IMG/VR virus record: IMGVR_UViG_3300042324_000380
Span: 1-30,309 of that record
DNA: 30,309 nt
Strand: one strand, 5' to 3'
From: a virus
Both the position numbers and the translations under genes were made by a program. A model generated the notes under the pieces. It saw only the letters and a list, made by a program, of their open reading frames with translations, ran no database searches and was not told where the DNA came from. Of this stretch, positions 773 to 29,360 are shown piece after piece. Numbering within the stretch: position 1 is the first letter of the stretch; each line of letters opens with the position of its first letter.

Positions 773-782
773 TATAAGTATA
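773..782 (-). promoter_or_regulatory. TATACTTATA promoter-like motif
   Basis: Exact copy on the coding strand, 21 nt before the ATG at 751. A GAGGAAG ribosome binding site lies between motif and start. Confidence 0.6.
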
Positions 783-799
783 CACCAGTTATAAAATCA

Positions 800-1267
800 T
801 CACGGAAATATCTCACTGCCGCCCGGTGCTTTTATATAACGTGTTTGTATTTTATCATTCTGCTCGCTGTAGTTTAATAACAATTGCTGGCCCGCTTCCA
901 TACATGCCTTGTTGCTTTTGCGTAAGTCGTTCTGTTGCTTGGTTATAACATCGTGGCACTTTGTACAAATGGCACGCAAACCATCCTTCTCGACAAACAA
1001 TCTTTCAATAAAAGTATTCCAATCCACGAAGCCATTTGTTCCAACAACTGGGTCAACATGATCTACGCGAATATCTTTATTACCTACTTTCTTTTTACAC
1101 AGAGCACATACATAAGTATTGCGTGCGGTCTTTGCTTCTTTCTTGGTCGTGTTCTTTGGACTCCACCTGCACGAAGCCCGACGAAGTGCTGATGATATAA
1201 AACTATTTTTGCGAGCAGTAGTCCACATACCATCTGCATGTTCTTTTTTAGATTTTGATTTTGCCAT
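800..1267 (-). CDS. HNH endonuclease
   Basis: This 155-residue protein has the zinc-stabilised HNH nuclease fold: CxxC at C54/C57, the catalytic DH pair at D69-H70 (VDHVDPVVG), and CTKCH at C101/C104/H105. The basic N-terminus (residues 1-50, rich in K/R/T) may bind DNA. Stand-alone HNH proteins of this size are common in phages as homing-type or packaging-associated nucleases. Its position between two Ig-like tail-protein genes, far from the terminase, favours a mobile, homing-type gene. A variant of the promoter-like motif (1272-1281) lies 4 nt before the ATG, leaving no room for a ribosome binding site. Confidence 0.85.
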   Translation of the reverse strand: MAKSKSKKEHADGMWTTARKNSFISSALRRASCRWSPKNTTKKEAKTARNTYVCALCKKKVGNKDIRVDHVDPVVGTNGFVDWNTFIERLFVEKDGLRAICTKCHDVITKQQNDLRKSNKACMEAGQQLLLNYSEQNDKIQTRYIKAPGGSEIFP

Positions 1268-1271
1268 ATAA

Positions 1272-1281
1272 TCTAACTATA
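1272..1281 (-). promoter_or_regulatory. Variant promoter-like motif (TATAGTTAGA)
   Basis: One mismatch to TATANTTATA on the coding strand, 4 nt before the ATG of the HNH gene at 1267. Confidence 0.4.
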
Positions 1282-1309
1282 AGCAATTGTATTCAAACCG
1301 CAATTTATT

Positions 1310-2518
1310 TTAAACAACATTTCCAATCCAATTATTTCCTTCTGTATCACTGTCATATACAGCGGCCTCGTATCCTTGGCATCTTACTTCAACCGCTACT
1401 TCCACAGTAGTGGTGGAAACTATAGTGCCAAAATTATGTGAGCTACCATCTCTTGTAGGCCCAGTCCAGCCAGCACCGTCCACGTTAATCCACCAGTCAT
1501 AAACAAACGGCGACGTTCCACCGGAAGGAGTCACGCCAATATTGATTACCTGTGACGCAGCTATATTGGATGGATTTGCTTCGGACCAAGTTATACCAGT
1601 AGCCGCTTGATATGGAGCAAAACTGGATGTTACATAAGCATCTCCGGTTACTATAATATAACTTGATGATGCATTTACATTTCCAATTCCGCCAGTATCT
1701 CCAAGCCAATTCACAAAGTAATAACCCGCAGAAGGATTGGCCAATAAAGTATATTGTTGATTGTCATTGTTACTAAGCTGCAACACACCTCCGTCACCGT
1801 CACCATCCAACACTGTGCTATCTCCTCCACTACCATTGTTTGCTTGAACATTATATAATATCCAGTTATATACAGCTTCTGCTGTAGCATCTCCATCTGC
1901 TGTAAAGTTGGCAATAGTTTGAGACAATGCGCTATTAACAAAAGAAAGATCGCCTACTGGATTGCTCCAATTATTAAATATTTGATATGATGGTGCAGAA
2001 CTTGCAGTTATTGGCATATTATCAAAATATCCAAACGTTCCATCTCCAGTCCCATTTGTAACAGTTAGCGTCCATTGGTTGACGGCGTAAGAAGCTGATA
2101 CAGTTTTAGCTGCTGACATTAGTATAGTCGTCTGTGCAGAAGTGGGCGACACCACCGTATCTCCCAACCACTGGTCAAATGAATAGTGTGTCGGTGCGGC
2201 TGATGCAGTTATTGGGGCATAAGTACCAGAGTTCTTCATTCCTCCGCCACTGCCACTATAAACAGAAAGTAAATATTGGATGATTGGGGCATAGTTATAA
2301 TTTTGAAACAAAGTGCTTAGGTCAGCACTTCCACTTTTGAAGAAAGTAGAAAATCCTATTGTGTCTCCACCAATTGATACTTCGTATCGTTGCGCCAAAT
2401 CCGTTCCACCCACCTTGAAACCGGTGTTTTGGCGTGCGGTGCCTGTTCGGGCCTTGAATATCAAGTCGAGGTCGGCGCGGGCCGCGGAAGCTGAGACACA
2501 GGTAAATCCGCTACTCAT
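1310..2518 (-). CDS. Modular tail-tip adhesin with InlB-like repeats
   Basis: This 402-residue protein is made of modules. Residues 1-72 form a compact N-terminal unit (LDLIFKARTGTARQNTGFKV ... KSGSADLSTLFQ), probably the attachment module. Three repeats follow at about 80-145, 148-218 and 219-305, each with a TV-x-G-x-G start, an ITASxxPxxxxFxxW core and an aromatic end. This is the pattern of the divergent InlB B-repeat/Flg_new_2 family seen in surface adhesins. Residues 306-402 form an Ig-like domain related to the protein at 380-751. The start overlaps the stop of the J-like gene (TAATG) and is preceded by GGAG. It is a likely receptor-binding or baseplate-decorating protein. Domain names are by pattern recognition. 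Confidence 0.7.
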   Translation of the reverse strand: MSSGFTCVSASAARADLDLIFKARTGTARQNTGFKVGGTDLAQRYEVSIGGDTIGFSTFFKSGSADLSTLFQNYNYAPIIQYLLSVYSGSGGGMKNSGTYAPITASAAPTHYSFDQWLGDTVVSPTSAQTTILMSAAKTVSASYAVNQWTLTVTNGTGDGTFGYFDNMPITASSAPSYQIFNNWSNPVGDLSFVNSALSQTIANFTADGDATAEAVYNWILYNVQANNGSGGDSTVLDGDGDGGVLQLSNNDNQQYTLLANPSAGYYFVNWLGDTGGIGNVNASSSYIIVTGDAYVTSSFAPYQAATGITWSEANPSNIAASQVINIGVTPSGGTSPFVYDWWINVDGAGWTGPTRDGSSHNFGTIVSTTTVEVAVEVRCQGYEAAVYDSDTEGNNWIGNVV

Positions 2519-5500
2519 TATCGTTTCTCCAATACTCCGATGCGCTGACGCATATTTTCTATAAGTTTGTTCTGATCTTGGATGGCTCCAATAAGGAACG
2601 GCACAATCTTGCTGTAATCCAAACCATTCACTTCGCCATCTTTGTAACTGACGATGTTAGGGATTAGTTCAGCCACTTGTTCAGCAATCAACCCCGCATC
2701 CTGCTTCTTGCTACCATCTTTCCAGTCGAAGGTCTTCGGCTGTAACTTATTTACAATGTCCATAGAACCTTGTAACGGATGAACGTTGTCCTTGTATTTT
2801 ATAGAACTTGGACTGTTGAACGCATCGGCATAAACATCAGTTTGAACATATAATGTTCCGCCCGTGGTTATAGCCATCAATTCATTACTGTTGCCACTGT
2901 CTACCCAACGGTGTGCTTCGTTGGTCGTTAATGTTCCAGTAACACCAGTTCCACCAGCATAAGTTAAAACATTACCATTGGCAAAGTTTGCCGATATTGC
3001 TCTGTCTGTATTCGCCGTGCTGTTGCCAAATCGAATATGTTCACCCTTGAATCCATTGTTTGTACTGGAATGATTTATTTCAAGTGTGCCGTCTCGGTGC
3101 CAAATACCTTGTTCAGTTTGTGCAGTACGAAAGCGTAAAGTACCATCGCCAGCAGTTGTAGCAACATCGCCAGCCGACAATACAAGCGTACCACGAATTC
3201 CTGCGCCACCCCCGCCCACACCAACCAAGTCGATTTGTGCGCCGTTTGTTTCACCGTTGGCACTACCACCCGTTATAATAAAATTACCATTGTTGTCTTG
3301 ATAACGCATACCGTTACCACTATTAATCATAATACCGCTACCAGTGATTTCAGGAGACTCTAAACGAGCGGCAGTTAATAATACAGTAGCATTGATTGTT
3401 CCAGCAGTTATTTTACCAGCATCAAGTTCTCTGATGAAAGCCTGTGGCATATATACACCAGATGCATCAGCAACAAACGATTGCGATACAGTGCCATTGG
3501 TTGTATTGTATATTTTAAATGTATCTGCTTGAACAGTGAAAGTACTTTCAGCACCACTTTGATTTATAATTCTAAATCCAGCAATGCGTGGTGTTCCAGA
3601 TGATGTAACAGTCAAAGCATATTCTTCACCAAAATTCACCAATGATTGACTGATCGGATTGATACGACCATCATCTACTGCTTGCCAAGTTGTGCCATTC
3701 CAACGATATGGCTTATATGCATCATCGGTGTCCCACCACAAATCGCCTTGCACAATACTTCCAGTAGTTGCTCCAGTTGGTGCAGAAGTTTGATACCACG
3801 ACACTTTACCATTTAGTCTTTCTGGTGTGCTCCAAGATCCAATCAGTGTAATTCCATCTGCTCCACTGATAAGTCCATTAGACACCCACAAAGCATTGCC
3901 ATCATCTGCTGGGATAGTGATGCTCCAAAATGCCGGTGTAAGATTGCCAGTTGGCGTAGCTGGTATTGTGGCACTTCTACGATATATGTTATATTGTGTA
4001 TTGCCAATGCTACCAGTTGGACCTGCTTCTCCAGTACCTATACTTGCTACAACGGCAGTTGCAGCACTGGATGTAGCAGACGTGTTTCCACTTGTATCAA
4101 CATTCTGTAGCCATACATAATATGAACTGCCAGATGCTATTGTCTTGTTCCAAGTTGTACCACTTATACTACCTTGATATGTCCAACTTGATGTATTATT
4201 TACATTGTTGAACCAGATTTTAGTAAATTTATAATCTGTATCTACTGCTTCATTTGTCCAATTTGCTGTAAAACTACCGGTTCCACCAGTTGCGGTTATG
4301 CTGCTTGGCGTTTGTGGAGGCGTACCATCACCATTTATCTTTATGCTGCTGCTTACATAACTACTATATACACCCAGATAGTTGAAGTTGCGTGCTCTAA
4401 AATCATATGTTTTGCCAGCCTCAACGTCTATTGTTGTAAATTCACTGATGGTTCTTCCAAATGTGCCAATAGCACCATAATCAGCAGATGCTGTGTCCTT
4501 GAAATCTACTTCAATATCTGCAATACTTCCGCTATATGAAGCACTCCAATATAATGTTGCACTTGGAAATACAGTTCCATCTTTATCAATCACTGTGCTT
4601 TCAAGCAAACTGAAGCCAACTGGCGGTTGTACAATAAATGGATTTGGCAAATTGGTATTTGGACTCAAATCTCTATCTACATCTTCACCAACTGGAAAGT
4701 CATATATTGCACTGTCAGTTTCTTTCAATGAAAGGCTGGTGCTCAAATCTGGGTTTATAGTAAGTTCAATAACCTCAAATACTTTGTTGTTCCATCCATA
4801 ACGATCTACTGAAAGATATACATTGTCTCCAGCAATCAATTGTAATCCGCTGATTTTGGTTGTGATAGACACACTCAAATCTTGGCGACTATCAAGCAAT
4901 GTTAGCTTGGCAATGCGACGAGCAACTGTATGATTTGTTACAGCACTCAATTCAATATCAATAGGACTTTCTACACCATCATCCTCTGCCAAATAATAAC
5001 TGCTGGTTATTGGCACAAAGTCGGCTGCTTGAAAGCTGCTTGTATATGTCCTGCCATCAACATACAATCCACGCACACTATTGAAACTATTGGCAATGCT
5101 GCTCTTGGTTGTAACATTGATGCTTCCAAGCAAGTCATCTTCATTTAGATATATTGTTGGAGTGCTGTATACACCAACTTTTAGTGTAAATTTACCATTT
5201 GTATATACCAACTTACCATAGCAAGTTTTTAGTATATCTTCAATTACATCTGCTGGCTTTGTATTGAGAGTGAATGTATGATTACATGTATAACGTTTGC
5301 CTGTGCCTACTCCATATGGCTCATAGTTACATGCATCTTTTGCGACGCCAAAACTGCCACTATCAATTTCATCAGATGTTGCACCAAAATAGTTTAGCAA
5401 ATAATGTCTAAGAATGAGTGATGGATTATCATAATAATCAACATCGTCTCCATTTTCATCCTGCAATGCATGACCAACAACAGTGGCTGATATATTTGGA

Positions 5501-6078
5501 ATACCATTTGGATAAACACTTGGATCTGCTACAAGCTTCGCATAAATACTTGCAATGCCATTGAGCTTACAATCGCTATTCCATTCTGTGGATGGAGTCA
5601 TAACATATGCAGTTTGAGACGGTGCTCCAACTTTATATGTCATTGCCAATTTATCTGCTGGAAATACTGCTGATTGACCACTGCCACTTTCATATGCAAT
5701 TACATCATTGAAATAGATGTTTTTCAGGTCGCTGATTTGATGACCTGCAAGAGCAACAACCAGATGCAAAAATTCATTCTTGTTTGATGTTCCACTGCTA
5801 TTTGTGCTGGCAAATATTATAGGCCCAGATACTCTGCTAATTCCATATATAACACGCCTAGATGACACAGTTTCGCGTGTCATTGATATTTTACCAGAAG
5901 CCTCTGACTGCAAACTACCAAATGCAGGAGCTTTTATCATGCTTTGTGCTATGGCATATGTTGTGCCTGCTACAACAACATATGAGCCAACTATGATGGC
6001 AGTTTGTGTGGCTATGGAGATATTAACACCTGCCGAAGCAATTGCGTAAAGAATTTCTGCTGCTAATAGTTCTGCCAT
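2518..6078 (-). CDS. J-like tail tip/host specificity protein with C-terminal S74 chaperone
   Basis: This 1186-residue protein occupies the position of the lambda gpJ-type central tip protein. The N-terminus has hydrophobic helices (about 5-45), then a conserved-looking hub region (ETVSSRRVIYGISRVSGPI). A fibronectin-III-like domain lies at about 590-670, followed by beta-rich linker sequence. Residues 1091-1186 match the Peptidase_S74 intramolecular chaperone: SSIKYKDN with a Ser and a Lys five residues apart (the known catalytic dyad spacing), then GLIAEQVAELIP and LDYSKIVPFLIGAIQDQ. In known S74 proteins this domain drives trimer folding and cuts itself off, so the mature protein is likely to end near residue 1091. 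A GGAG site precedes the ATG. Confidence 0.85.
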   Translation of the reverse strand: MAELLAAEILYAIASAGVNISIATQTAIIVGSYVVVAGTTYAIAQSMIKAPAFGSLQSEASGKISMTRETVSSRRVIYGISRVSGPIIFASTNSSGTSNKNEFLHLVVALAGHQISDLKNIYFNDVIAYESGSGQSAVFPADKLAMTYKVGAPSQTAYVMTPSTEWNSDCKLNGIASIYAKLVADPSVYPNGIPNISATVVGHALQDENGDDVDYYDNPSLILRHYLLNYFGATSDEIDSGSFGVAKDACNYEPYGVGTGKRYTCNHTFTLNTKPADVIEDILKTCYGKLVYTNGKFTLKVGVYSTPTIYLNEDDLLGSINVTTKSSIANSFNSVRGLYVDGRTYTSSFQAADFVPITSSYYLAEDDGVESPIDIELSAVTNHTVARRIAKLTLLDSRQDLSVSITTKISGLQLIAGDNVYLSVDRYGWNNKVFEVIELTINPDLSTSLSLKETDSAIYDFPVGEDVDRDLSPNTNLPNPFIVQPPVGFSLLESTVIDKDGTVFPSATLYWSASYSGSIADIEVDFKDTASADYGAIGTFGRTISEFTTIDVEAGKTYDFRARNFNYLGVYSSYVSSSIKINGDGTPPQTPSSITATGGTGSFTANWTNEAVDTDYKFTKIWFNNVNNTSSWTYQGSISGTTWNKTIASGSSYYVWLQNVDTSGNTSATSSAATAVVASIGTGEAGPTGSIGNTQYNIYRRSATIPATPTGNLTPAFWSITIPADDGNALWVSNGLISGADGITLIGSWSTPERLNGKVSWYQTSAPTGATTGSIVQGDLWWDTDDAYKPYRWNGTTWQAVDDGRINPISQSLVNFGEEYALTVTSSGTPRIAGFRIINQSGAESTFTVQADTFKIYNTTNGTVSQSFVADASGVYMPQAFIRELDAGKITAGTINATVLLTAARLESPEITGSGIMINSGNGMRYQDNNGNFIITGGSANGETNGAQIDLVGVGGGGAGIRGTLVLSAGDVATTAGDGTLRFRTAQTEQGIWHRDGTLEINHSSTNNGFKGEHIRFGNSTANTDRAISANFANGNVLTYAGGTGVTGTLTTNEAHRWVDSGNSNELMAITTGGTLYVQTDVYADAFNSPSSIKYKDNVHPLQGSMDIVNKLQPKTFDWKDGSKKQDAGLIAEQVAELIPNIVSYKDGEVNGLDYSKIVPFLIGAIQDQNKLIENMRQRIGVLEKR

Positions 6079-6081
6079 AGT

Positions 6082-6459
6082 TTATTTCTCCGTATAATAA
6101 TACACATCTGTTATTTTATCTTTGCTACGAAATGCTCCACCCGCAAACAATGCTTTGGTACCATCATATATTCCAATTGCATTTTCACATAACACAACAT
6201 CACCGGCATATATTGCAGTGTCATTTCTCTTGGCAAATCCAGCAGTAGATAATACTGTATGCCATCCACCCTTTGATTTTATAAGATTGGCGTTTGTATC
6301 TTCATCTTTTACCTTGCCTTTAAATTCGGCCAAGAAATCTTTCTTGTACATATGCTCTAGCATTTTACCAACAAAAAATCCGCAGCAGTTAGTTCTCCAG
6401 TTGAATTTAACTCTGTGTAGTTCAGCCAATTTATTATAAAATGATGAATCTATATACAT
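6082..6459 (-). CDS. NlpC/P60-like tail protein (DUF6950-like)
   Basis: This 125-residue protein lies between the hub and J-like genes, where many siphophages encode a cell-wall peptidase. The NCC motif (residues 24-26) would supply the nucleophile Cys at the start of a helix (CGFFVGKMLEHMY). A later AGDVVLCENAIGIYDG segment resembles the GDvvl strand of NlpC/P60-like phage proteins such as DUF6950. The usual order Cys, then helix, then GDV holds, but the DC pair typical of the family is replaced by NC and the catalytic His is not certain, so activity is unproven. The start overlaps the previous stop as TAATG. Confidence 0.55.
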   Translation of the reverse strand: MYIDSSFYNKLAELHRVKFNWRTNCCGFFVGKMLEHMYKKDFLAEFKGKVKDEDTNANLIKSKGGWHTVLSTAGFAKRNDTAIYAGDVVLCENAIGIYDGTKALFAGGAFRSKDKITDVYYYTEK

Positions 6460-7079
6460 TATTCGCCGTCTCCAGTTCCTTCATCTGCTGTGTTGCCAAC
6501 GCTACTAGGTGCGCTTGTGCCCCAATATATACTTTTATCAGCCATACTTGCCACAAACTCCAATCCTTTATCTGTTGGATATAATTCTTTTTGTGCTTCA
6601 TCTGTATAACGCAAGTCGCTTGGTCTGTTCAAATCAATCAGTCTATTTTCACATTTTACAGTTATTGTAGATAATTCGCCAGATTCATTTATTACCAATT
6701 GATTCATTCTGCCACGAAACAATGTAATTTGTTCATATGTAGTCATGGCCGTGTTGAATAATATCAAATATATAGCAACTTGTCTTCCTCTATAATTATC
6801 ATTTAGTGCCAAAGATACATATTCAGTTGGTATGCCAGAAAGAGTCAAATCAACGCTCTTGGCACTAACTTCAGTTGTTTCTGTTACTGCTGACAGTGTT
6901 CCAAGTGTACCAATGCCTTGATAATTGCCTCCACCAAAATCGTCGCTGAAACTCTTGCTTGCATTTCCTGTCCAAAGTCTCACGGCACTGCCACTAAAAT
7001 CCATATATGCAGCAATATACGGCTGTATAAGTGATACACTGCTGCTTACATATGTTGCTGTTACACCATTTCTACTCAT
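6459..7079 (-). CDS. DUF2163-like tail hub protein
   Basis: I use the start at 7079 (MSRNGVTATYV), which has a GGAGG ribosome binding site 9 nt upstream, rather than a longer frame from 7109 that would overlap the previous gene. The 206-residue protein contains FRGRMNQLVIN, TITVKCENRLIDLNRPSDLRYTDEAQKELYPTDKGLEFV (read in two parts) and a C-terminal YWG, features of the DUF2163/phage BR0599-type tail protein. That family sits between the distal tail protein and the NlpC-like gene in many siphophages and acts as a hub adaptor. Position and motif agree. Confidence 0.7.
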   Translation of the reverse strand: MSRNGVTATYVSSSVSLIQPYIAAYMDFSGSAVRLWTGNASKSFSDDFGGGNYQGIGTLGTLSAVTETTEVSAKSVDLTLSGIPTEYVSLALNDNYRGRQVAIYLILFNTAMTTYEQITLFRGRMNQLVINESGELSTITVKCENRLIDLNRPSDLRYTDEAQKELYPTDKGLEFVASMADKSIYWGTSAPSSVGNTADEGTGDGE

Positions 7080-7080
7080 A

Positions 7081-7626
7081 TTATATAGCCTCCACGATTG
7101 GCACCACAATGCCTGTGAGCATCATTTCATCAACGCTAAATTGTATATCATTTGTTGCTAGACGCATCCTTGTGCCAGATGTTGTATTGATTGTATATGA
7201 TGTGCTTGGAGATAGTTTTGGAAACAAACTTGTGGCTGTAGTAAATTGAACAAGTCTATTGCTGCTATTATCATAACCATACTTGCCAATCTCCACAGTT
7301 CCACTACCTAAAGTAAAATCATTTCCCGTTGCTGTTGTCGTAATACCAACACTAGCACTTATCATAAATTTGTTTGGAAGTTTGTATGTAAATGTTCCAC
7401 TTGTTCCTGCAAGTGCATTCAAAAATCCCGTCAATTCTTCAGCATCAGTTTGAAACAATGGTGCATATATTAGATTTAGTTCCCACCATTGACCACCATA
7501 ACGATACGTTTGTGTCTTACCAGTATATGGTGATTGAAATTGTGTTGCTATTGTACGAGACCCAAAATCAATGCTCTTTGGAACAAGTCTGGCATTGGTT
7601 GGATATGTTAGTGGATATGAAGGCAT
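7081..7626 (-). CDS. Distal tail (Dit-like) protein
   Basis: This 181-residue, beta-rich protein lies directly after the tape measure gene and before the DUF2163-like hub, the usual place of the distal tail protein that caps the tube and carries the baseplate. It has a WWELNLIYAPL segment and a FLNALAGTSGTFTYKLP segment, typical of phage minor tail/DUF2460-type proteins in which a width-limiting residue stretch follows a tube-like fold. The stop (7081) is followed after one base by the next ATG. No enzymatic motif is seen. Confidence 0.65.
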   Translation of the reverse strand: MPSYPLTYPTNARLVPKSIDFGSRTIATQFQSPYTGKTQTYRYGGQWWELNLIYAPLFQTDAEELTGFLNALAGTSGTFTYKLPNKFMISASVGITTTATGNDFTLGSGTVEIGKYGYDNSSNRLVQFTTATSLFPKLSPSTSYTINTTSGTRMRLATNDIQFSVDEMMLTGIVVPIVEAI

Positions 7627-7638
7627 ATTATTATATTA

Positions 7639-10086
7639 TTAGACTGATAATCCTCTGGCATAACTACCACCGCGTTGTTTTGCGTCCAGCACTCCAGCCA
7701 TTGCTTCACTCTTGAAGCGCGGCAACAGTGATGCCATCTCGGCACGAACAGTTTGAGCAACACCAGTTTGCACATTGATTGTTTGATTTACAACTATAGT
7801 TTCACTTGGTGCCATGTCATTTGGAAGTATATATCCATTTGCCGCTGGAACAAATGTTTCTGGACCACGCTCTCCGACTCTATAGCCGCCGCCAGCCATC
7901 ACAGGACCACCATTTGCTCTGCCAGTAAGTCCTGTCATTTGTCCAAATGCAGCAGCGGCATTTGTTGTTGGAGATATAATACCTATTGCTGCCATAATAC
8001 CCTGTAGTATTGTTGTGCGAAGTATCATTGCTGCAATATCGCTCAGTATATTCTTAAACACCCCGCTCAATGCTTCTCCAAAATTTTCACCAGCAACTAT
8101 TGCTCTACTGAATTGATCTGCAAAGTCGGACATATAACCAAATGCTTGAATGATATATGGATTTGATCTTGCAAAAGCTTCTATATTTGCATCTCGCAGT
8201 TTGTTTGAAGATTCCAACAATGCTATTGTTTGCAATCTTAGTGCATCTTGTTCTCGTCCTTGTAGTTTATATGCTTCTACTGCTGCATTGATTGCTTGAA
8301 CTTCTGTATCATATACTTCTGTAGCAGTTCTACCATTTTCCAACAACGAAGTTCCTGTGCTCTTTAGTTGTTTCTGAAGTTCATCGTATGCACTTGTTAT
8401 TTGATCTATTCCCCTTGGAAGGTTTGCAGCAGTTCCACCGGCTTGTCCTAATGTCCCAGTTATTGTTCCTTGACCAAACATTGATGCAGCTTCTCCTCTT
8501 CCAGCAAATTGAACAGCTTGAGAGTTTGTCATTTTCATCTCTGCATTGAGACTTATTTGTGCTCTTGTAACTCCATCCAATGAAGATTTTAATTTATCTA
8601 TTGCTTTACTATAATCATCAATACCAATATATCCAAATAGAAATGCTTCATTAAGTTTATCTACTTCATCTTGTGCATTTTCTAATGGAGTTTTTATACT
8701 ATCTGTAATTTGTTTTCCAAATTGCATCATTGCCTTGGCATAATCTTCACCTTCTTTTACAATGATTTTTGCTCTCTCGGACAATGCTTGATTCTCTCTA
8801 TCAATACTGAGTGCAGCATCATTTGCGGTTATTGCTAATTTTTTAGTAGCAATTTCAGCATCTGCTGCATCTTTTTGTGCTTGAGTAAATCCAAATTTAT
8901 CTGGACTTGGAGCAATTCCAGAAAGTTGTGCTAAAAATTCATAAGTTGAATTATATAAATCATCAGCTTGCTTTGCAAGTGTATCCAATCCAACCAATTT
9001 AGCACCTTTTGATATTAAAAGTAATGTGCCAGTAAATGATAAAGCTAATGTTGATAATGCTGCTGTTGCTGTAGTTAGTACTGCTAAAACACTTCCACCC
9101 AATGCTTGCCATGCAACATTTATAGCAAATGCAGCATACGCAAATGCAACTCTTATTTTATCTGCTAATGATGCCAACAAACCTAACAGGCCACCTTGTG
9201 CTGCAACTTTAGCAATTGCTGCTGCCAACTCAAAGTTTAATATTCTTACAAATGCCACTGATGCAATGGACAAAGCAGCAAATCCAGCGGCCAGCACTGA
9301 AAACGCAGTGTCCAAATTTTTTACAATGAGTGTTGCTAATTTTGCTATTGCTTCTAATGCTGGTGCCAACTTTATCAATGCTGCTCTGAATTCATCATTT
9401 ACTGCATTACCAATACCTTCAAATGCTTTGGATATTTGGTCAATCTTTTTTACGTCCTGATCCGAGAATAGTATTCTTCCTTGCGTGGCCGATCTTAGTC
9501 CATTGATAGTAGAAGATATTTCAGTATATGCTTTCCCTAAAAGTTTAGTACCGATTTCTGCTTTTTTATTTTCATCAGTTACTCTTGTTAGTGAAGCCGC
9601 AACTAAGTCGAATCTTTCATCCGGCTTTAGACTTGCCAAATATGTAAATGAAAGTCCCAATTGATTAAATGACGCAATTGTATCTTTATTTCCATTGACT
9701 GCTTCATTTACCGATTTTTGCAGTTCTTTGTATGCTATTTTTATATCAGATACACTTGCTCCATTCCTTTTAGCAGCTATATCCAATGCATAGAACTTTG
9801 ATGCACTTGCGCCAACTTTTTCTGCTTCATCTGCAACCACAGATATGTCTTTAGCAACTTGAACAAACGCAGATCCAATCTTTTGTATTGCAACAATAGA
9901 AATAGCCTGAGTTGCGAATCTAGTGAGTGCCTTTGATACACCATCAAATGCATCTGTGGCACCTTGCGTATCTTTTTTTATACCAGCAGACCACGCCTTT
10001 GTCTGCTTCTGCATAGCAGTCAGCCCCTGCGTATATTTAGCTGTGGTTGCGACGAAATCTACGCTGACTGTACTTAGAGTTGCCAT
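7639..10086 (-). CDS. Tail tape measure protein
   Basis: This 815-residue protein is long, helical and Ala-rich. It starts with a coiled-coil region (AMQKQTKAWSAGIKKD) and a TMP-like core (VADEAEKVGASASKFYALD ... LGKAYTEI). It has a hydrophobic stretch at about 255-365 that could insert into the host membrane during DNA delivery. The C-terminal GGPVMAGGGYRVGERGPE motif is common in tape measure proteins. By the usual rule of about 0.15 nm per residue the tail would be near 120 nm; this is an estimate. The gene follows two chaperone-like genes and precedes the Dit-like gene, as expected. The promoter-like motif lies 19 nt before the ATG. Confidence 0.9.
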   Translation of the reverse strand: MATLSTVSVDFVATTAKYTQGLTAMQKQTKAWSAGIKKDTQGATDAFDGVSKALTRFATQAISIVAIQKIGSAFVQVAKDISVVADEAEKVGASASKFYALDIAAKRNGASVSDIKIAYKELQKSVNEAVNGNKDTIASFNQLGLSFTYLASLKPDERFDLVAASLTRVTDENKKAEIGTKLLGKAYTEISSTINGLRSATQGRILFSDQDVKKIDQISKAFEGIGNAVNDEFRAALIKLAPALEAIAKLATLIVKNLDTAFSVLAAGFAALSIASVAFVRILNFELAAAIAKVAAQGGLLGLLASLADKIRVAFAYAAFAINVAWQALGGSVLAVLTTATAALSTLALSFTGTLLLISKGAKLVGLDTLAKQADDLYNSTYEFLAQLSGIAPSPDKFGFTQAQKDAADAEIATKKLAITANDAALSIDRENQALSERAKIIVKEGEDYAKAMMQFGKQITDSIKTPLENAQDEVDKLNEAFLFGYIGIDDYSKAIDKLKSSLDGVTRAQISLNAEMKMTNSQAVQFAGRGEAASMFGQGTITGTLGQAGGTAANLPRGIDQITSAYDELQKQLKSTGTSLLENGRTATEVYDTEVQAINAAVEAYKLQGREQDALRLQTIALLESSNKLRDANIEAFARSNPYIIQAFGYMSDFADQFSRAIVAGENFGEALSGVFKNILSDIAAMILRTTILQGIMAAIGIISPTTNAAAAFGQMTGLTGRANGGPVMAGGGYRVGERGPETFVPAANGYILPNDMAPSETIVVNQTINVQTGVAQTVRAEMASLLPRFKSEAMAGVLDAKQRGGSYARGLSV

Positions 10087-10105: not shown

Positions 10106-10115
10106 TATAAGTATA
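10106..10115 (-). promoter_or_regulatory. TATACTTATA promoter-like motif
   Basis: Exact copy on the coding strand, 19 nt before the ATG of the tape measure gene at 10086. Confidence 0.6.
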
Positions 10116-10914: not shown

Positions 10915-10924
10915 TATAACTATA
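10915..10924 (-). promoter_or_regulatory. TATAGTTATA promoter-like motif
   Basis: Matches TATANTTATA on the coding strand, 3 nt before the ATG of the NUMOD3 gene at 10911. Confidence 0.5.
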
Positions 10925-13883: not shown

Positions 13884-13893
13884 CATAAGTATA
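13884..13893 (-). promoter_or_regulatory. Promoter-like motif (TATACTTATG)
   Basis: One mismatch to TATANTTATA on the coding strand, 5 nt before the ATG at 13878. Confidence 0.45.
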
Positions 13894-18178: not shown

Positions 18179-18188
18179 GATAAATATA
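18179..18188 (-). promoter_or_regulatory. Promoter-like motif (TATATTTATC)
   Basis: One mismatch to TATANTTATA on the coding strand, 3 nt before the ATG at 18175. It lies in AT-rich sequence, so this is a weaker case. Confidence 0.3.
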
Positions 18189-20357: not shown

Positions 20358-20367
20358 TATAAGTATT
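20358..20367 (-). promoter_or_regulatory. Promoter-like motif (AATACTTATA)
   Basis: One mismatch to TATANTTATA on the coding strand, 18 nt before the ATG at 20339. AAGGAAA lies between motif and start. Confidence 0.5.
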
Positions 20368-20368: not shown

Positions 20369-22753
20369 TTAGAACCCAGCATACGTCCATATATCGTCTA
20401 TAATATCTGAGCCAATTGACGTTGCCGTAGAAGTAGCATTTGAATTTTCTGCAAATAGTGCATATGAAGCATAACTTGCTGTGCCTGCCAATGAACCTGT
20501 GAATCCATATGCACGAACACTACCAGTTACAATTACTCCAGCGCCATCTAATGTCATTGTATCTGTATCATCATATCTAAATGCAAGTGGTATATTAGCA
20601 CTATGATTGGTATATTTTGAACAACTAATTGCGCCGGCTGCTTCGTTTCCTGCTCTTAGATATAAATTCGCAGCCAATTCAACCAAACCATAGGTCATTA
20701 CAATTTCATTGTCTGAGGTTGTCTCAGTAGTAATTTTTAGAGGTCTATTGGTAGTATAAATTATATTATCTGTGTCATTTGCTGTAATCTGCAACAGTGG
20801 GGAACCAGCACTTTTAAATGTTAATTGTGTTCCGCTGTTTTGCCCAATTGTTAAATTTGTAGATCCACCATCATCATTAAATGTTACAGCATCAGGAACA
20901 GTTGGATATGTAATAACGATAGGATCAGAAGATACCAATCCAGATGCTGTGAATGCATAACTTGCTGTGCCAGCAAATTGACTATCAACTGTAATATCAG
21001 TGATATTGGCGTATGGCATTGATGTTGGTGTTTCACCGGATGTTCCGCTTGTGCCACTGGTTCCAGACTCTCCACTTGTTCCAGATTCACCAGAGGTTCC
21101 AGACGAACCGCTTTCTCCAGACGAACCACTTGTGCCGCTTTCGCCAGATGTGCCACTGGTTCCAGATTCACCAGAGGTTCCGCTTGTGCCACTGGTTCCA
21201 GATTCACCGGAGCTTCCACTTGTGCCACTGGTTCCAGACTCTCCACTTGTTCCAGATTCACCAGATGTTCCACTACTTCCAGACGAACCGCTTTCTCCAG
21301 ACGAACCACTTGTTCCAGATTCACCGCTGCTGCCAGATGTTCCACTTGTTCCACTTGTTCCAGACGAGCCGCTTTCACCAGATGAACCACTGGTTCCACT
21401 TTCGCCGGACGTTCCAGACGAGCCGCTTGTGCCGCTTTCACCGGATGTTCCACTGCTGCCAGATTCTCCACTTGTTCCAGACGAGCCACTTTCTCCAGAC
21501 GAACCACTTGAACCCGATGCACCAGTGGCCCCACTAGAACCGGAACTTCCACTAGAACCAGATGTGCCAGCCTCGCCGCTTGTACCAGACGAACCACTTG
21601 AACCCGATGTACCAGTGGCCCCACTAGAACCGGAACTTCCACTAGAACCAGATGTGCCAGCCTCGCCGCTTGTACCAGACGAACCACTTGAACCCGATGC
21701 ACCAGTGGCCCCACTAGAACCAGATGTGCCAGCCTCGCCGCTTGTACCAGACGAACCACTTGAACCCGATGTACCAGTGGCCCCACTAGAACCAGAACTT
21801 CCACTGGAACCAGAAGTACCGGCTGCGCCAGATATTCCAGATGACCCGCTCGTGCCCGATGTTCCACCTGTTCCAGATGTTCCACTACTACCACTTGTAC
21901 CAGAATTACCACTTGTACCAGAATTACCACTAGTGCCAGACGAACCACTCGTGCCACTTGTTCCACTTGTACCAGAACTTCCGGCTGTTCCAGCCGTACC
22001 ATTGGTTCCACTCGTACCAGAACTTCCGCTATAACCGGCTGTTCCCGAAGTTCCACTGGTACCACTGTAACTTAAAGCATATGAGGCACTAACAGCATAT
22101 GAAGAAGATATAGCATTAGTTGCCCACGAAGAAGTTTCGGCTAACCCAATTAAATATGAAGCACTATATGCATAGCTGGCAGTCTCAATACCAATGCCAC
22201 CACTGACCTGTAATGTACCGTGTATGACCATGCTCCCGGTAACATCCACGTCGCCCATGAATTGCACATCTGTATCATTAATCAATAAAGCATTTTCACT
22301 GCCGGTGATTTCATATTTTGAAACAAAGTAAGCAAGTGAACCAGACTTTCCAGACAGACCAATGATTACATTTTTATATTCTATCTCAGCACCATAAGTT
22401 ACAGTGAATGAAATGCCGCGTGTATAAATACCCGTGCGAATATCAAAACTATCTGTGCTGCTTCCCAACACCATCTGAATTTCTACATCATATCCGTTTA
22501 AGATTGATATAATAAAGTCGCGCATTTCCTCCGCCTTTTCTATCGTGCCTGCTTTGCAATCCCACGTCACAGTTTCATAACGTACACTTGGACCGCTCAT
22601 CGTTTGAGTGCCCAAAGTACTGTCGCGCCTGAACACTATACAAGGAAGCTCAACGTCTTGGTTGGAAAAGGTCGATTCACTATATACTGGCACTTCCAGA
22701 TTTAAATGAATCATCTGGCGTAAGTTATAATAATATTCTGTTATTCCGGCCAT
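20369..22753 (-). CDS. Tail-terminator-like/collagen-like fibre protein A
   Basis: This 794-residue protein follows the HK97-gp10-like gene, exactly where a tail terminator gene is expected. Its N-terminal ~135 residues (VPVYSESTFSNQDVELPCIV then TIEKAEEMRDFIISILNGY and GIYTRGISFTVTYGAEI) resemble DUF3168-type terminators. No other terminator candidate is in the window. Residues about 230-573 are an uninterrupted SGTSG/SGSSG/SGESG collagen-like tract, and 574-794 form a beta-rich C-terminus (ASYAFTASGL, GSVRAYGFTGSLAGTASYA). Protein B shares the N-terminal domain and repeat type. The fibre would project from the neck if the N-terminus keeps its usual place. Confidence 0.75.
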   Translation of the reverse strand: MAGITEYYYNLRQMIHLNLEVPVYSESTFSNQDVELPCIVFRRDSTLGTQTMSGPSVRYETVTWDCKAGTIEKAEEMRDFIISILNGYDVEIQMVLGSSTDSFDIRTGIYTRGISFTVTYGAEIEYKNVIIGLSGKSGSLAYFVSKYEITGSENALLINDTDVQFMGDVDVTGSMVIHGTLQVSGGIGIETASYAYSASYLIGLAETSSWATNAISSSYAVSASYALSYSGTSGTSGTAGYSGSSGTSGTNGTAGTAGSSGTSGTSGTSGSSGTSGNSGTSGNSGTSGSSGTSGTGGTSGTSGSSGISGAAGTSGSSGSSGSSGATGTSGSSGSSGTSGEAGTSGSSGATGASGSSGSSGTSGEAGTSGSSGSSGSSGATGTSGSSGSSGTSGEAGTSGSSGSSGSSGATGASGSSGSSGESGSSGTSGESGSSGTSGESGTSGSSGTSGESGTSGSSGESGSSGTSGTSGTSGSSGESGTSGSSGESGSSGSSGTSGESGTSGESGTSGTSGSSGESGTSGTSGTSGESGTSGTSGESGTSGSSGESGSSGTSGESGTSGESGTSGTSGTSGETPTSMPYANITDITVDSQFAGTASYAFTASGLVSSDPIVITYPTVPDAVTFNDDGGSTNLTIGQNSGTQLTFKSAGSPLLQITANDTDNIIYTTNRPLKITTETTSDNEIVMTYGLVELAANLYLRAGNEAAGAISCSKYTNHSANIPLAFRYDDTDTMTLDGAGVIVTGSVRAYGFTGSLAGTASYASYALFAENSNATSTATSIGSDIIDDIWTYAGF
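21040..22064 (-). repeat. SGTSG-coding repeat tract
   Basis: About 1 kb of degenerate 9- to 18-bp units encodes Gly-Thr/Ser-Ser-Gly repeats in fibre protein A. A related shorter tract lies in protein B (about 17150-17555 and 16410-16575). The repeats create long spurious open frames on other frames and strands. Confidence 0.85.
21501..21820 (-). repeat. 90-bp tandem repeats inside the collagen-like tract
   Basis: A 90-bp unit occurs at 21501-21590 and 21591-21680 with one base difference, then as a 72-bp copy at 21681-21752 missing 18 bp, then as a diverged partial copy from 21753. It encodes a 30-residue unit. The near identity shows recent expansion or slippage. Confidence 0.85.
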
Positions 22754-22766: not shown

Positions 22767-22776
22767 TATAATTATT
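22767..22776 (-). promoter_or_regulatory. Promoter-like motif (AATAATTATA)
   Basis: One mismatch to TATANTTATA on the coding strand, 13 nt before the ATG at 22753. AGGAAA lies between motif and start. Confidence 0.4.
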
Positions 22777-23545: not shown

Positions 23546-24022
23546 TTATGGTTTTGTTAGTTTATATGGACTCAACAGCGCGCCCACCGAAAATGATAAA
23601 GGAGAAGTAATATTACCAATCGCTTCTGGTAATCTATTTTCATAAAAACTATTAACCAACATCATCTGTGCAACTTTAACATTACCCGGCACTTTTGATC
23701 CTGATTGGACCAATGTAAAAGAAATTGGTCCACTATAAGTTTGGTCAATATAAGTGTACCACGATCCATCAACTTCCTTTAATGAACCCGTTGATACAGT
23801 TAATACAGTCTGTGTAGATAAGAATAAGTCCCCGCTGCTTGAAAATACATTCATGCTGCACGTCGTTGGGGTAAAGTATCTATTGCATTCGGCCACTACT
23901 TGTTCATAACTCGCCGTGATTAGCACGTCTATCAGAGAGTCGTCGTCGTTTACTTCAAGTTTTAAGTAATTCTTTGATTCACTTACTGTAAGACCATAAT
24001 CAGATACGTTGTAAATTCTCAT
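23546..24022 (-). CDS. Head-tail connector (HK97 gp6-like adaptor)
   Basis: I use the ATG at 24022 (MRIYNVSDYGLTVSESKNYL); a longer frame to 24058 would span the promoter-like motif. The 158-residue protein begins with the typical gp6/gp15-type pattern: a SESKNYLKLEVNDDDSLIDV helix pair, then LITASYEQVVAECNRYF, and ends in VAQMMLVNSFYENR followed by SPLSFSVGALLSPYK. Such proteins form the ring below the portal. It follows the capsid gene and its terminator, and has its own TATACTTATA motif 7 nt upstream. Confidence 0.85.
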   Translation of the reverse strand: MRIYNVSDYGLTVSESKNYLKLEVNDDDSLIDVLITASYEQVVAECNRYFTPTTCSMNVFSSSGDLFLSTQTVLTVSTGSLKEVDGSWYTYIDQTYSGPISFTLVQSGSKVPGNVKVAQMMLVNSFYENRLPEAIGNITSPLSFSVGALLSPYKLTKP

Positions 24023-24029: not shown

Positions 24030-24039
24030 TATAAGTATA
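24030..24039 (-). promoter_or_regulatory. TATACTTATA promoter-like motif
   Basis: Exact copy on the coding strand, 7 nt before the ATG of the connector gene at 24022. It lies downstream of the capsid terminator, as expected for re-initiated transcription. Confidence 0.65.
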
Positions 24040-24084: not shown

Positions 24085-24127
24085 ATATATAAAATAAAGA
24101 GGGCGGCTCTTTTTAGGAGCCGCCCTC
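24085..24127 (-). terminator. Intrinsic terminator after major capsid gene
   Basis: The arms 24099-24109 and 24117-24127 form a perfect 11-bp GC-rich stem (GAGGGCGGCTC) with a 7-nt loop, followed on the minus strand by TTTATTTTATAT. It lies 33 bp after the capsid stop. Confidence 0.9.
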
Positions 24128-25339: not shown

Positions 25340-25359
25340 ATTATTGTATTATTTGTTTG

Positions 25360-26085
25360 TTATACTAAGCACGAGGTTGTGCCTCGTAAATTTTTATCTT
25401 GTTCTTTTAGAGTTAAGAATTTCCATCTCAGTTCTAAATCTTTCATTTTATTAGCGTCGACAACTGGCGCAACCGGTGCAGCAGGTTCAACTTTAATATT
25501 TTCAATCTTCTTGTCCTCAACTCTGACTTCTGTTCCCCTTTCAGTGTTGAGATCAACGACAGTTTCCTCTTCGATAAAATCTTCGTTTCGCAATGCGAGG
25601 GTTGTTTCTCCATAAGCTGGACTAGATACAACAGATACTTCGCGCAAATTTAATGAAGATATTTCACGAATCTTTACGCCGGAACGTGAATAGTTTTTAC
25701 TCTTTGGTTTATTAAATCCAAAACTAAATCCTTTCAAATCTCCGCGTTCTGCACTCACTAATGTATCTTTACCATAAGAAGTATCTGGTAAATCTATTTC
25801 AACATACAATCCATCTTCTTTATCCATCATGCGCAACGTTCCAGCAGAACTACGCCCAAGCAACATAGCGGGATCGTGTTCTTTAAAAGCCAGAATATCA
25901 TTATTTTTTAAACTCTCCACGAGTGCTCCCGGTAGAATAATTTCACGAAACGTATCACCAGAAACAGTGCGCAATTCACCGCTCATGCTATTATAAACTA
26001 CAGCACGTCCTACGATGGTTTTCTTTTCTTTATCAACCTTTACGTCTTCCATGCCGAAGGCGCGATATTCTAAAGTATTATTCAT
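25360..26085 (-). CDS. Prohead protease (S78/HK97 gp4-like)
   Basis: This 241-residue protein has the S78 prohead protease pattern: TIVGRAVVYNSMSG, ILPGALVESLKNNDILAFKE with H70 directly after, LLGRSSAGTLRM, then LKGFSFGFN with S121, and SLNLREVSVVSSPAYGETTL. H70 and S121 are the expected catalytic His and Ser. It would cut the delta domain of the capsid protein and itself. The C-terminal part (about 170-241) is charged and may bind the scaffold. TATAATTATA lies 4 nt before the ATG, overlapping the portal stop. Confidence 0.9.
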   Translation of the reverse strand: MNNTLEYRAFGMEDVKVDKEKKTIVGRAVVYNSMSGELRTVSGDTFREIILPGALVESLKNNDILAFKEHDPAMLLGRSSAGTLRMMDKEDGLYVEIDLPDTSYGKDTLVSAERGDLKGFSFGFNKPKSKNYSRSGVKIREISSLNLREVSVVSSPAYGETTLALRNEDFIEEETVVDLNTERGTEVRVEDKKIENIKVEPAAPVAPVVDANKMKDLELRWKFLTLKEQDKNLRGTTSCLV

Positions 26086-26089: not shown

Positions 26090-26099
26090 TATAATTATA
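26090..26099 (-). promoter_or_regulatory. TATAATTATA promoter-like motif
   Basis: Matches TATANTTATA on the coding strand, 4 nt before the protease ATG at 26085, and overlaps the portal stop codon. Confidence 0.45.
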
Positions 26100-27363
26100 A
26101 CGCCGGTGGAGAAATTGAACCACTAACTTGCGTATTTGCCGCGGGTTTACCCACTGCCATATAGTTTACTGGACGTAGATAATCATCACCACCGTCTTTA
26201 GGATCAACATATACACCCGTATCTTCTGCCTCGTTCACCTGATTAGAAGTCATTACACCATTGGCCATAGCGAATCTATACCACTCAATTCTAGTCTTGA
26301 TGTCACCGCGCAACAGACCAGATACATTGAAGTTAATATAATATTCGTCGCTATCTTCTAGCAACGCCTTATTTAAAGTCTGTTCAATATTTGCTATAAT
26401 TGGAGCCAAGGTCCAGTTTACGAACTCCAAGCTGTTCAATTCAACGCTGGCATATGTCGGCGAACCAGTTAAACCAAAGCGATGTAGTGGGCATCCAAAA
26501 ATGTCTGCGACAATACGTTGTGCACTAAATTGTTTTTGGCTAACATACTCAGCTTCTTGGGCAGTTAGACCGCTGTTGATTGCCTCACTCTTTAAAGTGT
26601 TTGGTAAGAAGGCTGTGCGTCCGCTATTATTTCCACTGAAACCAGCGGCCCAACCAGATTTCAATTTATTCAACTCTTCTTCTTTAAGATTGCCGGGGTG
26701 ATATATAATACCACTTGGACGTGCCGCGTTCTTTGCAATAGCAGTACCGGCACTTTCTAATTCGGAGTAGCCATCAAATAAAGTGCGGAAGGTTTCTATA
26801 ACACTCATTCCGTAGATACCATTGCGCGTGTATCCTTTGATATGAATGATTTGGTCGTTGGTGAAATCCTTCATTACCGACGTACCATCATTCAGCGTCA
26901 GCAACATTTTGTATGTTGGCGAGCCATTGGCATCTATATTGATTTCTACAGAATACGGATTGAGCGGCACCAACTCGGCAGTTAGTCCATCATTGCGTCT
27001 AATGCGCTGTATATAAACATTTCCAAATAAATCTAACTGTGTCACAGCCCACGACCAAAATGTAAAATTGGTCATGAATGGATTTGGAGACTTGGTGATT
27101 ATATTATAGTATGGATGATCTACCGCTGGTTCATGTCCCTTATCCAGTTTTTTATTTAATGTAATTGGAAGACTTGCTATAGTATTTGAACGCAATGTAA
27201 CACATCCGTAAACTACAGAAATTTTATCTATATTCTTACCAACACTGAAAGCACTATCCCAATTGGAAACTGTTACACCACCAGTCGTAGTGCTGCGTGC
27301 TTCTTCTACTGGTTGTTCCGTAGCGGTCTTAACCTTGGGCTTTAAAAATGAAAAGAAGTCCAT
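26095..27363 (-). CDS. Portal protein, HK97 family
   Basis: This 422-residue protein matches the HK97-type portal family in length and sequence. It has VYGCVTLRSNTIASLPITL, NPFMTNFTFWSWAVTQLDLF, YIQRIRR, QIIHIKGYTRNGIYGMSVIE, AKNAARPSGIIYHP, QRIVADIFGCPLHRFG and NSLEFVNWTLAPIIANIEQ. It forms the dodecameric vertex through which DNA is packaged. It lies 43 bp after the large terminase gene and before the protease gene. The C-terminus (GKPAANTQVSGSISPPAL) is flexible. Confidence 0.95.
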   Translation of the reverse strand: MDFFSFLKPKVKTATEQPVEEARSTTTGGVTVSNWDSAFSVGKNIDKISVVYGCVTLRSNTIASLPITLNKKLDKGHEPAVDHPYYNIITKSPNPFMTNFTFWSWAVTQLDLFGNVYIQRIRRNDGLTAELVPLNPYSVEINIDANGSPTYKMLLTLNDGTSVMKDFTNDQIIHIKGYTRNGIYGMSVIETFRTLFDGYSELESAGTAIAKNAARPSGIIYHPGNLKEEELNKLKSGWAAGFSGNNSGRTAFLPNTLKSEAINSGLTAQEAEYVSQKQFSAQRIVADIFGCPLHRFGLTGSPTYASVELNSLEFVNWTLAPIIANIEQTLNKALLEDSDEYYINFNVSGLLRGDIKTRIEWYRFAMANGVMTSNQVNEAEDTGVYVDPKDGGDDYLRPVNYMAVGKPAANTQVSGSISPPAL

Positions 27364-27373: not shown

Positions 27374-27383
27374 AATAAGTATT
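27374..27383 (-). promoter_or_regulatory. Promoter-like motif (AATACTTATT)
   Basis: Two mismatches at the ends of TATANTTATA but the core ATACTTAT is intact on the coding strand, 10 nt before the portal ATG at 27363. Confidence 0.4.
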
Positions 27384-27405
27384 ATTGAAGTTGAAAAAAC
27401 GCTGG

Positions 27406-28935
27406 TCATACCCACGATATATTGGTAGCTCCAGCCTCAAATGCATTCTTCGACGCCTCTTCTAGTGCCATTAGTGAAGCAATTACAGGGTCAATACGTT
27501 CTCTACTCTTGGCTTTGTCTGCCTTGGCATTACCGGCGGCATCAATTTTCAATATAACATTGCTCATTGCCCAGCGCAATACTGGGTTCTTGTCGTGTAT
27601 AAACCCCTTAGCTAACACCAATCGCTCCATTGCACGTACTGGACTTGCCATGCTTGCAAATCCCTGCCCGAAATTTATAACCGCAAATCCTTGTTCTATT
27701 AATTTAGTACTGAGATAGCTTGAATTCCAGCGGTCGATTGCAACGGACGCTATATTATAATCTTTTGAAATATCGGTCAGATGCTTTAATACATAATCAT
27801 AATCTGTACAATTGCCCGGTGTAGCAGTTAGCCAGCCTTCCTTGGCCCACAACTCATAAGGCACTTTATCTTTTCTACTTCGTATCTTTATATTTTCCTC
27901 GGGGCAGAAGCAATGCACGAACACATAAAACTTTTCGTTCTTATAAAATACTAATGATAATGCAGTTAAGTCAACTGTACTGCTCAAATCTAAACCAGCA
28001 TAACAAGTATCTCCCTTGAAATCTTCTATCTTTATAACAGTGCCACACTCCATCCATTGCCCATCACCAATCCAACCTTTCTCACTGTCCAGCCACGCAT
28101 TTAGATATAATGTCTTGAATGCCATTTCAAACCGGGGAAACTCTTTGGCTCTATTAAATTCAGACTTAAAGAAATCCATGCTTACGGTGTGACCTAGTGA
28201 TGGATTACATTCTTTCCACGTCTCCTCACTGGTCCAGTCTTGTCCTTCTTTTAATCCATAAATCTTGGCATAGAAAGTATCGTCCTGTATAACACCAGAG
28301 TTGATACGCTCACCGTGTTCCACAAGCTGATAAAGAAATGACGCTTTGCTAAATCCGGCTGTACTTATACTTAACATTAGTGGTTGCTTGCGTGCACCCA
28401 ACGATGTTACCATTGAATTGTACAGCCCATCGTCCGGTGCCGCTAACAATTCATCAAATATAACAAAGCTTGCATTAAGTCCCAACGCTGTATTGGCATC
28501 TCTACTCAGTACACGAAACGTACTTTTTGTTTTTGGATTGTATAAAGCATTCTTGTATATCTTTATTCTCTTACTTAAAATCTTTGACGTAGAAACAAAG
28601 TCCATTGCCGCCTGAAATATAATACGTGCTTGGTCTCTGCTATTGGCACACGCATAAATTTCTCCATTGAACTCGCCAAACATAAGTTCATAAATGCACA
28701 GTGCAGCACACAATGTAGTCTTACCATTTTTTCTGGGAATTAGTATAAGTCCGTTTCTATACCTCCGCAACCCATCTGATTTATATTGACCATACAGCGA
28801 CTCAATAATTTCTCGCTGCCAATCCAGTAATACGAATGGAGTACCAGCATGAGTGCCTTTACTATGTCTGAGAAATTCTTTAAAGAATCGCTCGATCTTT
28901 TTCGGCACTGTCAAATCTGTCGTATATTGAACCAT
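27406..28935 (-). CDS. terL: Terminase large subunit
   Basis: This 509-residue protein is a complete DNA-packaging motor and nuclease. The ATPase has Walker A PRKNGKTT (67-74), Walker B SFVIFDE (156-162) and coupling motif STAGF (191-195). The RNase H-like nuclease has GLDLSST with D316, AIDRWNSS with D401 and RIDPVIASLMAL with D482. The length and LDWQREIIESLYG start match the Terminase_1/HK97-type family. Its ATG directly follows the small-terminase stop. All key residues are present. Confidence 0.97.
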   Translation of the reverse strand: MVQYTTDLTVPKKIERFFKEFLRHSKGTHAGTPFVLLDWQREIIESLYGQYKSDGLRRYRNGLILIPRKNGKTTLCAALCIYELMFGEFNGEIYACANSRDQARIIFQAAMDFVSTSKILSKRIKIYKNALYNPKTKSTFRVLSRDANTALGLNASFVIFDELLAAPDDGLYNSMVTSLGARKQPLMLSISTAGFSKASFLYQLVEHGERINSGVIQDDTFYAKIYGLKEGQDWTSEETWKECNPSLGHTVSMDFFKSEFNRAKEFPRFEMAFKTLYLNAWLDSEKGWIGDGQWMECGTVIKIEDFKGDTCYAGLDLSSTVDLTALSLVFYKNEKFYVFVHCFCPEENIKIRSRKDKVPYELWAKEGWLTATPGNCTDYDYVLKHLTDISKDYNIASVAIDRWNSSYLSTKLIEQGFAVINFGQGFASMASPVRAMERLVLAKGFIHDKNPVLRWAMSNVILKIDAAGNAKADKAKSRERIDPVIASLMALEEASKNAFEAGATNISWV

Positions 28936-29331
28936 TTACTTATCATCCATAAAGTCCGTCAGTGCGTCACTATCATCTACTTTAGCAATACGCAACTTGG
29001 CACGGGCACTTGGAGATATACCTAATTCTTTTATAAGGCTCAATGTGCTAGCAGTTAAATCATTCAGTGCTCTATTTTCAGATGGGTCTTTGTTTTCTTT
29101 TTGCGAAAGTGCTTGTAGTCTATCTAGTTGCATCGCGTATATAGACAATACATTCACATCACACTTTCCTGCTATACCTAAATTTACAATCTCTTTGGAT
29201 GCGGCCTTGTAAATCTTTTTGGCATTATCATTCAGCCATGTAGGAGGTCTTGGTATAATGCCGTCACTTACAGTCTTTGGACGTTTATCAGTAGAATTTA
29301 TAGAATCTGGCGAGGGTGTTCTTCCGGGCAT
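28936..29331 (-). CDS. terS: Terminase small subunit, P27-like
   Basis: This 131-residue protein begins with a basic, Pro-rich start (PGRTPSPDSINSTDKRPKT), then PRPPTWLNDNAKKIYKAASK and LGIAGKCDVNVLSIYAMQLD. This is the pattern of the P27-type small terminases (Terminase_4) that recognise the packaging site. The C-terminal half has a helix (TLSLIKELGISPSARAKLRI) that probably forms the ring. It is directly upstream of the large subunit. TATACTTATA lies 19 nt before the ATG, so this marks the start of the late module. Confidence 0.9.
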   Translation of the reverse strand: MPGRTPSPDSINSTDKRPKTVSDGIIPRPPTWLNDNAKKIYKAASKEIVNLGIAGKCDVNVLSIYAMQLDRLQALSQKENKDPSENRALNDLTASTLSLIKELGISPSARAKLRIAKVDDSDALTDFMDDK

Positions 29332-29350
29332 TTTATAATTGTTATTTACC

Positions 29351-29360
29351 TATAAGTATA
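29351..29360 (-). promoter_or_regulatory. TATACTTATA promoter-like motif at the head of the late module
   Basis: Exact copy on the minus (terminase) strand, 19 nt before the small-terminase ATG at 29331. The divergent HNH gene starts 33 bp to its right. Confidence 0.65.

Follow-up and report, generated by a model that had tools for sequence, protein, structure and literature searches.

Late promoters of phage T4 consist of the box TATAAATA at −13 to −6, which is recognised by the sigma factor gp55 acting with gp33 and the gp45 clamp (PMC1524935). Sigma-A promoters of Bacteroidota carry a −7 box, TAnnTTTG, at −12 to −5, and leaderless mRNAs make up only 5.5% in Flavobacterium psychrophilum (PMC9723704). 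ORF-adjacent −10 promoters (TANNNT) that yield leaderless mRNAs occur in Deinococcus-Thermus (PMC12340547), and the early promoters read by a phage polymerase in AR9 have the form AAATATATATTAT-6N-G, with AR9 leaders of 26–491 nt (PMC5312081).

The motif TTATAnTTATA, which precedes many virion genes in a 30,309-bp fragment of an uncultured virus in IMG/VR (hereinafter the window) and in its relatives, resembles each of these systems in part. Like the T4 late promoter, it is a short AT-rich −10-like box before virion genes, with no recognisable −35 hexamer, present in many copies per genome and conserved between related phages; unlike it, it reads TTATAnTTATA instead of TATAAATA, has an upstream TT and belongs to a siphovirus rather than a T4-like phage. 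The analogy with T4 drawn in the preliminary description would hold for the manner of working, and the sequence is different, as was claimed there. Membership in the T4 type itself was rejected because the de novo consensus is TTATA(C/T/G)TTATA in both the relatives and the window. No homologues of gp55, gp33 or gp45 were recognised among the proteins scanned in these incomplete genomes. With the Bacteroidota promoter the motif shares an 8-bp box starting with TA and SD-poor genes, and a box at −12 to −5 would place the RNA start on the ATG of genes with a 4-nt gap, but TAnTTATA is not TAnnTTTG. The likeness to Deinococcus-Thermus, with starts predicted from sequence, lies in a −10-like box a few nucleotides from the ATG, a predicted leaderless mRNA and the lack of a ribosome site in this class; the differences are that the genes belong to a phage and not to a host, that the core is longer and more constrained, and that half of the sites have leaders. 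As in the AR9 early promoter, a conserved AT-rich box lies close to the start, at a fixed spacing; however, the motif is shorter and less conserved than the AR9 box, and no phage RNA polymerase of the jumbo, crAss-like or T7 type was recognised in the fragments of these incomplete genomes.

The source stretch and its relatives

The window carries on its minus strand an HK97-type siphovirus structural module with genes for TerS, TerL, portal, protease, MCP, connector, neck proteins, collagen-like fibres, tail tube, tape measure and tail protein J. No named phage matched its first 25 kb at the DNA level. Four IMG/VR contigs (L008, L009, L012 and L020) are 99.9–100% identical to it across the shared stretches, and L009 extends 3.4 kb past its right end, into non-structural genes. 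The family further includes contigs with 69–79% identity in TerL and additional ones with 55–68% identity in MCP; below these there is a gap, the next TerL being at most 42% identical. Judged from IMG sample numbers, these phages probably live in freshwater.

The best matches among named phages, mostly gut Firmicutes phages, are at ~42% for TerL and ~34% for MCP, and a comparison of TerL with genome contigs gave a single match (37%, in a Reyranella MAG). Tail protein J, the tape measure and a small DUF-type protein resemble those of Roseobacter phages CRP-406, 811, 821 and 831 at roughly 29–44%; the relationship to these small phages covers window positions 2518–10086, with the tape measure C-terminus and tail protein J. 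Judged by these identities, the structural module is a mosaic, with Roseobacter-phage-like tail genes and with TerL and MCP closest to Firmicutes phages. For a replication-type protein encoded in L009, neither named phages nor plasmids gave a match, and IMG/VR contains no relative.

Several other features of the module were observed. A 123-nt perfect inverted repeat occupies positions 1–123 and 29567–29689, both arms corresponding to the C-terminal end of an HNH gene that is divergent from TerS; L009 supports only the right-hand copy, and the left arm may represent either another HNH fragment or a join made in assembly. The two collagen-like (GSSGTSG) fibre genes, 15416–18175 and 20369–22753, have common repeats and a common N-terminal domain, and the repeat array is partly missing in the near-identical L020, so that its length differs among close relatives. 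DNA methyltransferase-type genes lie upstream of TerS in three relatives (L059:114–674, an MT-A70 protein, and L028:205–1368 and L023:1–214, both judged by eye).

A directional motif before virion genes

The preliminary description had placed the exact motif before five genes of the window and close variants before 11 others. This is borne out in full: exact TATACTTATA precedes genes 751, 10086, 11452, 24022 and 29331 and is found nowhere else in the window, and all 11 variants are real, at the coordinates given, with matrix scores of 9.2–14.2. The variant at gene 27363 reads TAATACTTATT and lies 10 nt away from the ATG, and the motif of the plus-strand gene 12452 does lie on the plus strand. 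The sites and two associated hairpins are as follows.

773–782, minus strand: exact TATACTTATA, 21 nt before gene 380–751 (matrix score 10.4)
1272–1281, minus strand: TATAGTTAGA, 4 nt before gene 800–1267 (score 9.2)
10106–10115, minus strand: TATACTTATA, 19 nt before the tape measure gene, 7639–10086
10915–10924, minus strand: TATAGTTATA, 3 nt before gene 10681–10911; conserved in L031, L033 and L154
10975–11003, minus strand: strong terminator-like hairpin directly upstream of the 10915 site
11493–11502, minus strand: TATACTTATA, 40 nt before the tail tube gene, 11027–11452; conserved in L031, L033, L154 and L155
12438–12447, plus strand: AATAGTTATA, 4 nt before plus-strand gene 12452–12682
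13884–13893, minus strand: TATACTTATG, 5 nt before gene 13483–13878
14540–14549, minus strand: TATAGTTATA, 7 nt before gene 13906–14532
15367–15376, minus strand: CATAGTTATA, 6 nt before gene 14578–15360
18179–18188, minus strand: TATATTTATC, 3 nt before the fibre gene 15416–18175
20358–20367, minus strand: AATACTTATA, 18 nt before gene 19959–20339
22767–22776, minus strand: AATAATTATA, 13 nt before the fibre gene 20369–22753
24030–24039, minus strand: TATACTTATA, 7 nt before the connector gene, 23546–24022
24099–24127, minus strand: strong terminator-like hairpin between MCP and the 24030 site
26090–26099, minus strand: TATAATTATA (palindromic), 4 nt before the protease gene, 25360–26085
27374–27383, minus strand: AATACTTATT, 10 nt before the portal gene, 26095–27363
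29351–29360, minus strand: TATACTTATA, 19 nt before the TerS gene, 28936–29331

Sites that score 9.2 or higher with the family matrix precede 16 of the 33 window genes, and these cover all 16 genes listed. The exact form TATANTTATA occurs at eight sites, all on the sense strand and 3–40 nt upstream of a start codon; a ninth strand-match is the palindromic site at 26090–26099 read in reverse. Both terminator-like hairpins are located 50–60 nt upstream of motifs. When one mismatch is allowed, 67 matches are found on both strands compared to 20.7 expected, and nine of the 58 one-mismatch matches lie upstream of a start in the sense orientation, although the share of such positions in the sequence is 2.5% (P about 1e-5). 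The earlier observation that genes contain no exact internal copies holds (8 of 8 exact matches are sense-upstream), but one-mismatch copies are present inside genes; hence only the exact or high-scoring form discriminates, and the loose form alone is misleading. The suggestion that the motif serves almost every gene was too strong, given that it is present at 14 of the 17 genes preceded by a spacer of 17 nt or more versus two of the 16 that are packed more tightly (Fisher P 9e-5, with spacers entered by hand). The motif serves transcription units, not nearly each gene.

Expectation maximisation on upstream regions, seeded with common 6-mers only, produced TTATACTTATA de novo. A matrix trained on the relatives alone, with the window excluded, detected the motif in 13 of the 33 window upstreams (1.9 expected) and none in antisense, as well as in 9 of 304 intragenic tiles; in the reverse test, the window-trained matrix detected it in 50 of 255 upstreams of the relatives, against 9.2 expected and 25 in antisense. 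The expected counts were obtained with a Markov model of matching composition, for which the upstream regions themselves supplied the sequence, and start codons are computational, the gene caller having accepted ATG only. An artefact of base composition could be invoked since intergenic DNA is AT-rich and one-mismatch copies are found throughout; this explanation has a negligible chance of being correct considering the excess over the upstream-based controls, the retention of positions in held-out relatives and the absence of the motif from AT-rich outgroups (see below).

Conservation and anatomy of the motif

The motif is conserved gene by gene despite diverging flanks. Across the family, it is present in 12 of 13 distinct connector upstreams, 11 of 16 portal upstreams (some of the misses being truncated genes with a false start) and seven of nine TerS upstreams, and is missing from all 11 TerL upstreams. 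It is also missing from all 14 MCP upstreams examined, which counts as evidence against a late promoter because MCP is probably the most expressed late gene. The tape measure site stands 19 nt from its gene in L031 and L033, as in the window, and 18 nt in L154, whereas gene 12452 has a 4-nt gap in the window and in five of the five relatives examined (L031, L033, L035, L154 and L155). In most relatives the protease gene is preceded by the variant (A)ACTATTTATA with a gap of 3–4 nt. In two held-out contigs, L154 and L155, the pattern is that of the window: the motif stands ahead of the tape measure, the tail tube, gene 10681 and the opposite-strand gene 12452, and dit, 6459, 6082, J, 10128 and 10448 lack it.

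Outside the family, the motif matches 2 of 174 upstreams in AT-rich loci with TerL identity of at most 42%, precedes none of the 176 genes of Roseobacter phages CRP-406, 811, 821 and 831, and precedes two of the 63 genes of Pelagibacter phage HTVC026P, whose tail genes are likewise related. A literature search for TATACTTATA returned unrelated papers only, and an Rfam search gave no match.

The MCP leader (window 25340–25395, minus strand, and orthologues) is itself conserved, although it has no promoter motif. In it, an A-rich stretch comes after a short inverted repeat of GC-rich sequence (CGAGG-CACAA-CCTCG and variants). The hairpin was seen by eye alone, RNAalifold on a MAFFT alignment of the MCP leaders predicting no pairs.

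The 94 non-redundant family sites yield the consensus (T/A)(T/A)ATA(C/T/G)TTATA, within which TA-n-TTAT hardly varies; selecting the sites by score accounts for some of this sharpness. Outside the scored columns, T is found at −13 in 68% and at −14 in 55% of the sites, and G is almost missing at −13. The preference for T at −13 is seen in short-gap and long-gap sites alike and accordingly is a feature of the motif, not of the start codon. Regulation of late units by a phage DNA-binding protein, with the motif as operator, would be in line with its nearly palindromic form (TATAAnTATA on the opposite strand); this seems highly improbable, because the orientation tracks the gene (13 sense versus 0 antisense in the window) and the centre is asymmetric, with T in column 6 in 84% of the family sites.

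The gap to the ATG is 2–8 nt in 47 of the 94 sites (mode 3–4 nt), which is the ORF-adjacent arrangement with a −10-like box a few nucleotides from the ATG, and 10–44 nt in the other 47. Long-gap leaders are A-rich, and about one quarter of them contain an SD-like sequence; none of 49 short-gap cases has one, but there the motif itself fills that space. The start-codon-adjacent class and the upstream TT are features that go beyond the preliminary description. The proximity of half of the sites to the ATG and the scarcity of SD-like sequences are compatible with a signal acting at the RNA level to initiate translation of SD-poor mRNAs rather than a promoter. We consider such a signal very unlikely, given that the other half of the sites are 10–44 nt away and have the same upstream TT, and that packed genes and MCP also need translation, yet lack the motif.

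A candidate family-specific promoter

The most plausible reading, to which we assign a probability of about 0.7, is that a family-specific promoter located before most structural (late) transcription units has TTATAnTTATA as its −10-like core, that the short-gap messages have no leader or almost none, and that a factor encoded or modified by the phage is involved. The promoter reading of the preliminary description is correct in outline, and the motif is real and well conserved. An assignment to promoters is indicated by the strand bias, the position, the conservation across a diverged family, the terminators upstream of two sites and the absence within packed operons, and phage specificity by the restriction of the motif to the family. 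A directional, family-restricted promoter fits all this evidence, whereas the late-type designation is suggested by the structural genes downstream; given the few motif copies before non-structural genes in L009 and L023, use may not be exclusively late.

Under the proposed mechanism, a polymerase with a suitable specificity factor would bind the core and the TT 13–14 nt upstream, and the promoter would open before each spaced structural unit, with terminators insulating some of the units. RNA would start roughly 3–6 nt beyond the motif. If the core is placed like the T4 late box or the flavobacterial −7 box, the start would fall about 4–5 nt after the motif, that is, at or next to the start codon in the short class, and the observed gap mode of 3–4 nt agrees with this geometry. 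Sites with the 2–8-nt gap would produce leaderless or near-leaderless mRNAs translated by direct recognition of the start codon, and those with the 10–44-nt gap would give messages with a short leader rich in A, some of them containing a ribosome site of the AGGA type. Position and conservation are the basis on which promoter activity, the start point and leaderless translation are predicted here. The specificity factor would be phage-encoded or phage-modified; no sigma factor or RNA polymerase gene was recognised among the proteins scanned in the incomplete contigs, which include ~8 kb of non-structural DNA.

The main rival is an unusual host sigma factor, that is, an ordinary host promoter read as TATAnTTATA by a housekeeping or alternative sigma, with the phages copying host signals. 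The motif opens with TATA(C/G)T, which agrees with a TANNNT −10 box, host-type ORF-adjacent −10 promoters are known in Deinococcus-Thermus (PMC12340547), and the fragments contain no recognised phage sigma or polymerase. Known host layouts, however, show no clear enrichment. Pairs of the sigma70 type (TTGACA-like −35, 16–18-nt spacer, TATAAT), rejected as a candidate, number 75 versus 52.8 and 42 versus 38.5 in shuffles and are not concentrated at motif sites, and TTGA-TATAAT is found upstream twice in sense and twice in antisense. The Bacteroidota sigma-A form (TTG at −33, TAnnTTTG at −7) was rejected as well: TAnnTTTG occurs 19 times in sense and 24 in antisense (15.8 expected), and the paired form three times in sense and once in antisense (1.4 expected). 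Furthermore, the invariant second half TTATA and the spacing of the TT amount to a non-standard sigma70 layout, and relatives in the tail module that infect marine alphaproteobacteria lack the motif. Recognition by a host sigma thus appears possible but rather doubtful.

Returning to the family-specific promoter, the motif represents a testable transcription signal for an uncultured phage family that can be used for linking fragments of these phages and correcting start-codon calls, and could help to find, in complete genomes, a new factor of a sigma-like or polymerase-binding kind. The start-codon-adjacent class, from which leaderless messages are predicted for many virion genes, is the most interesting unreported part. 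Only tentatively do we suggest that TT-N12-TTATAnTTATA defines a new class of late promoters, read by an unrecognised phage-encoded factor, with many blocks of virion genes on separate leaderless mRNAs.

A palindromic CATATATATG-type element is located at window positions 13446–13457, 4 nt before gene 12660–13442; such elements lie 3–4 nt before the ATG in the window and five homologues, and the element before this gene may represent the same promoter in a weaker form.
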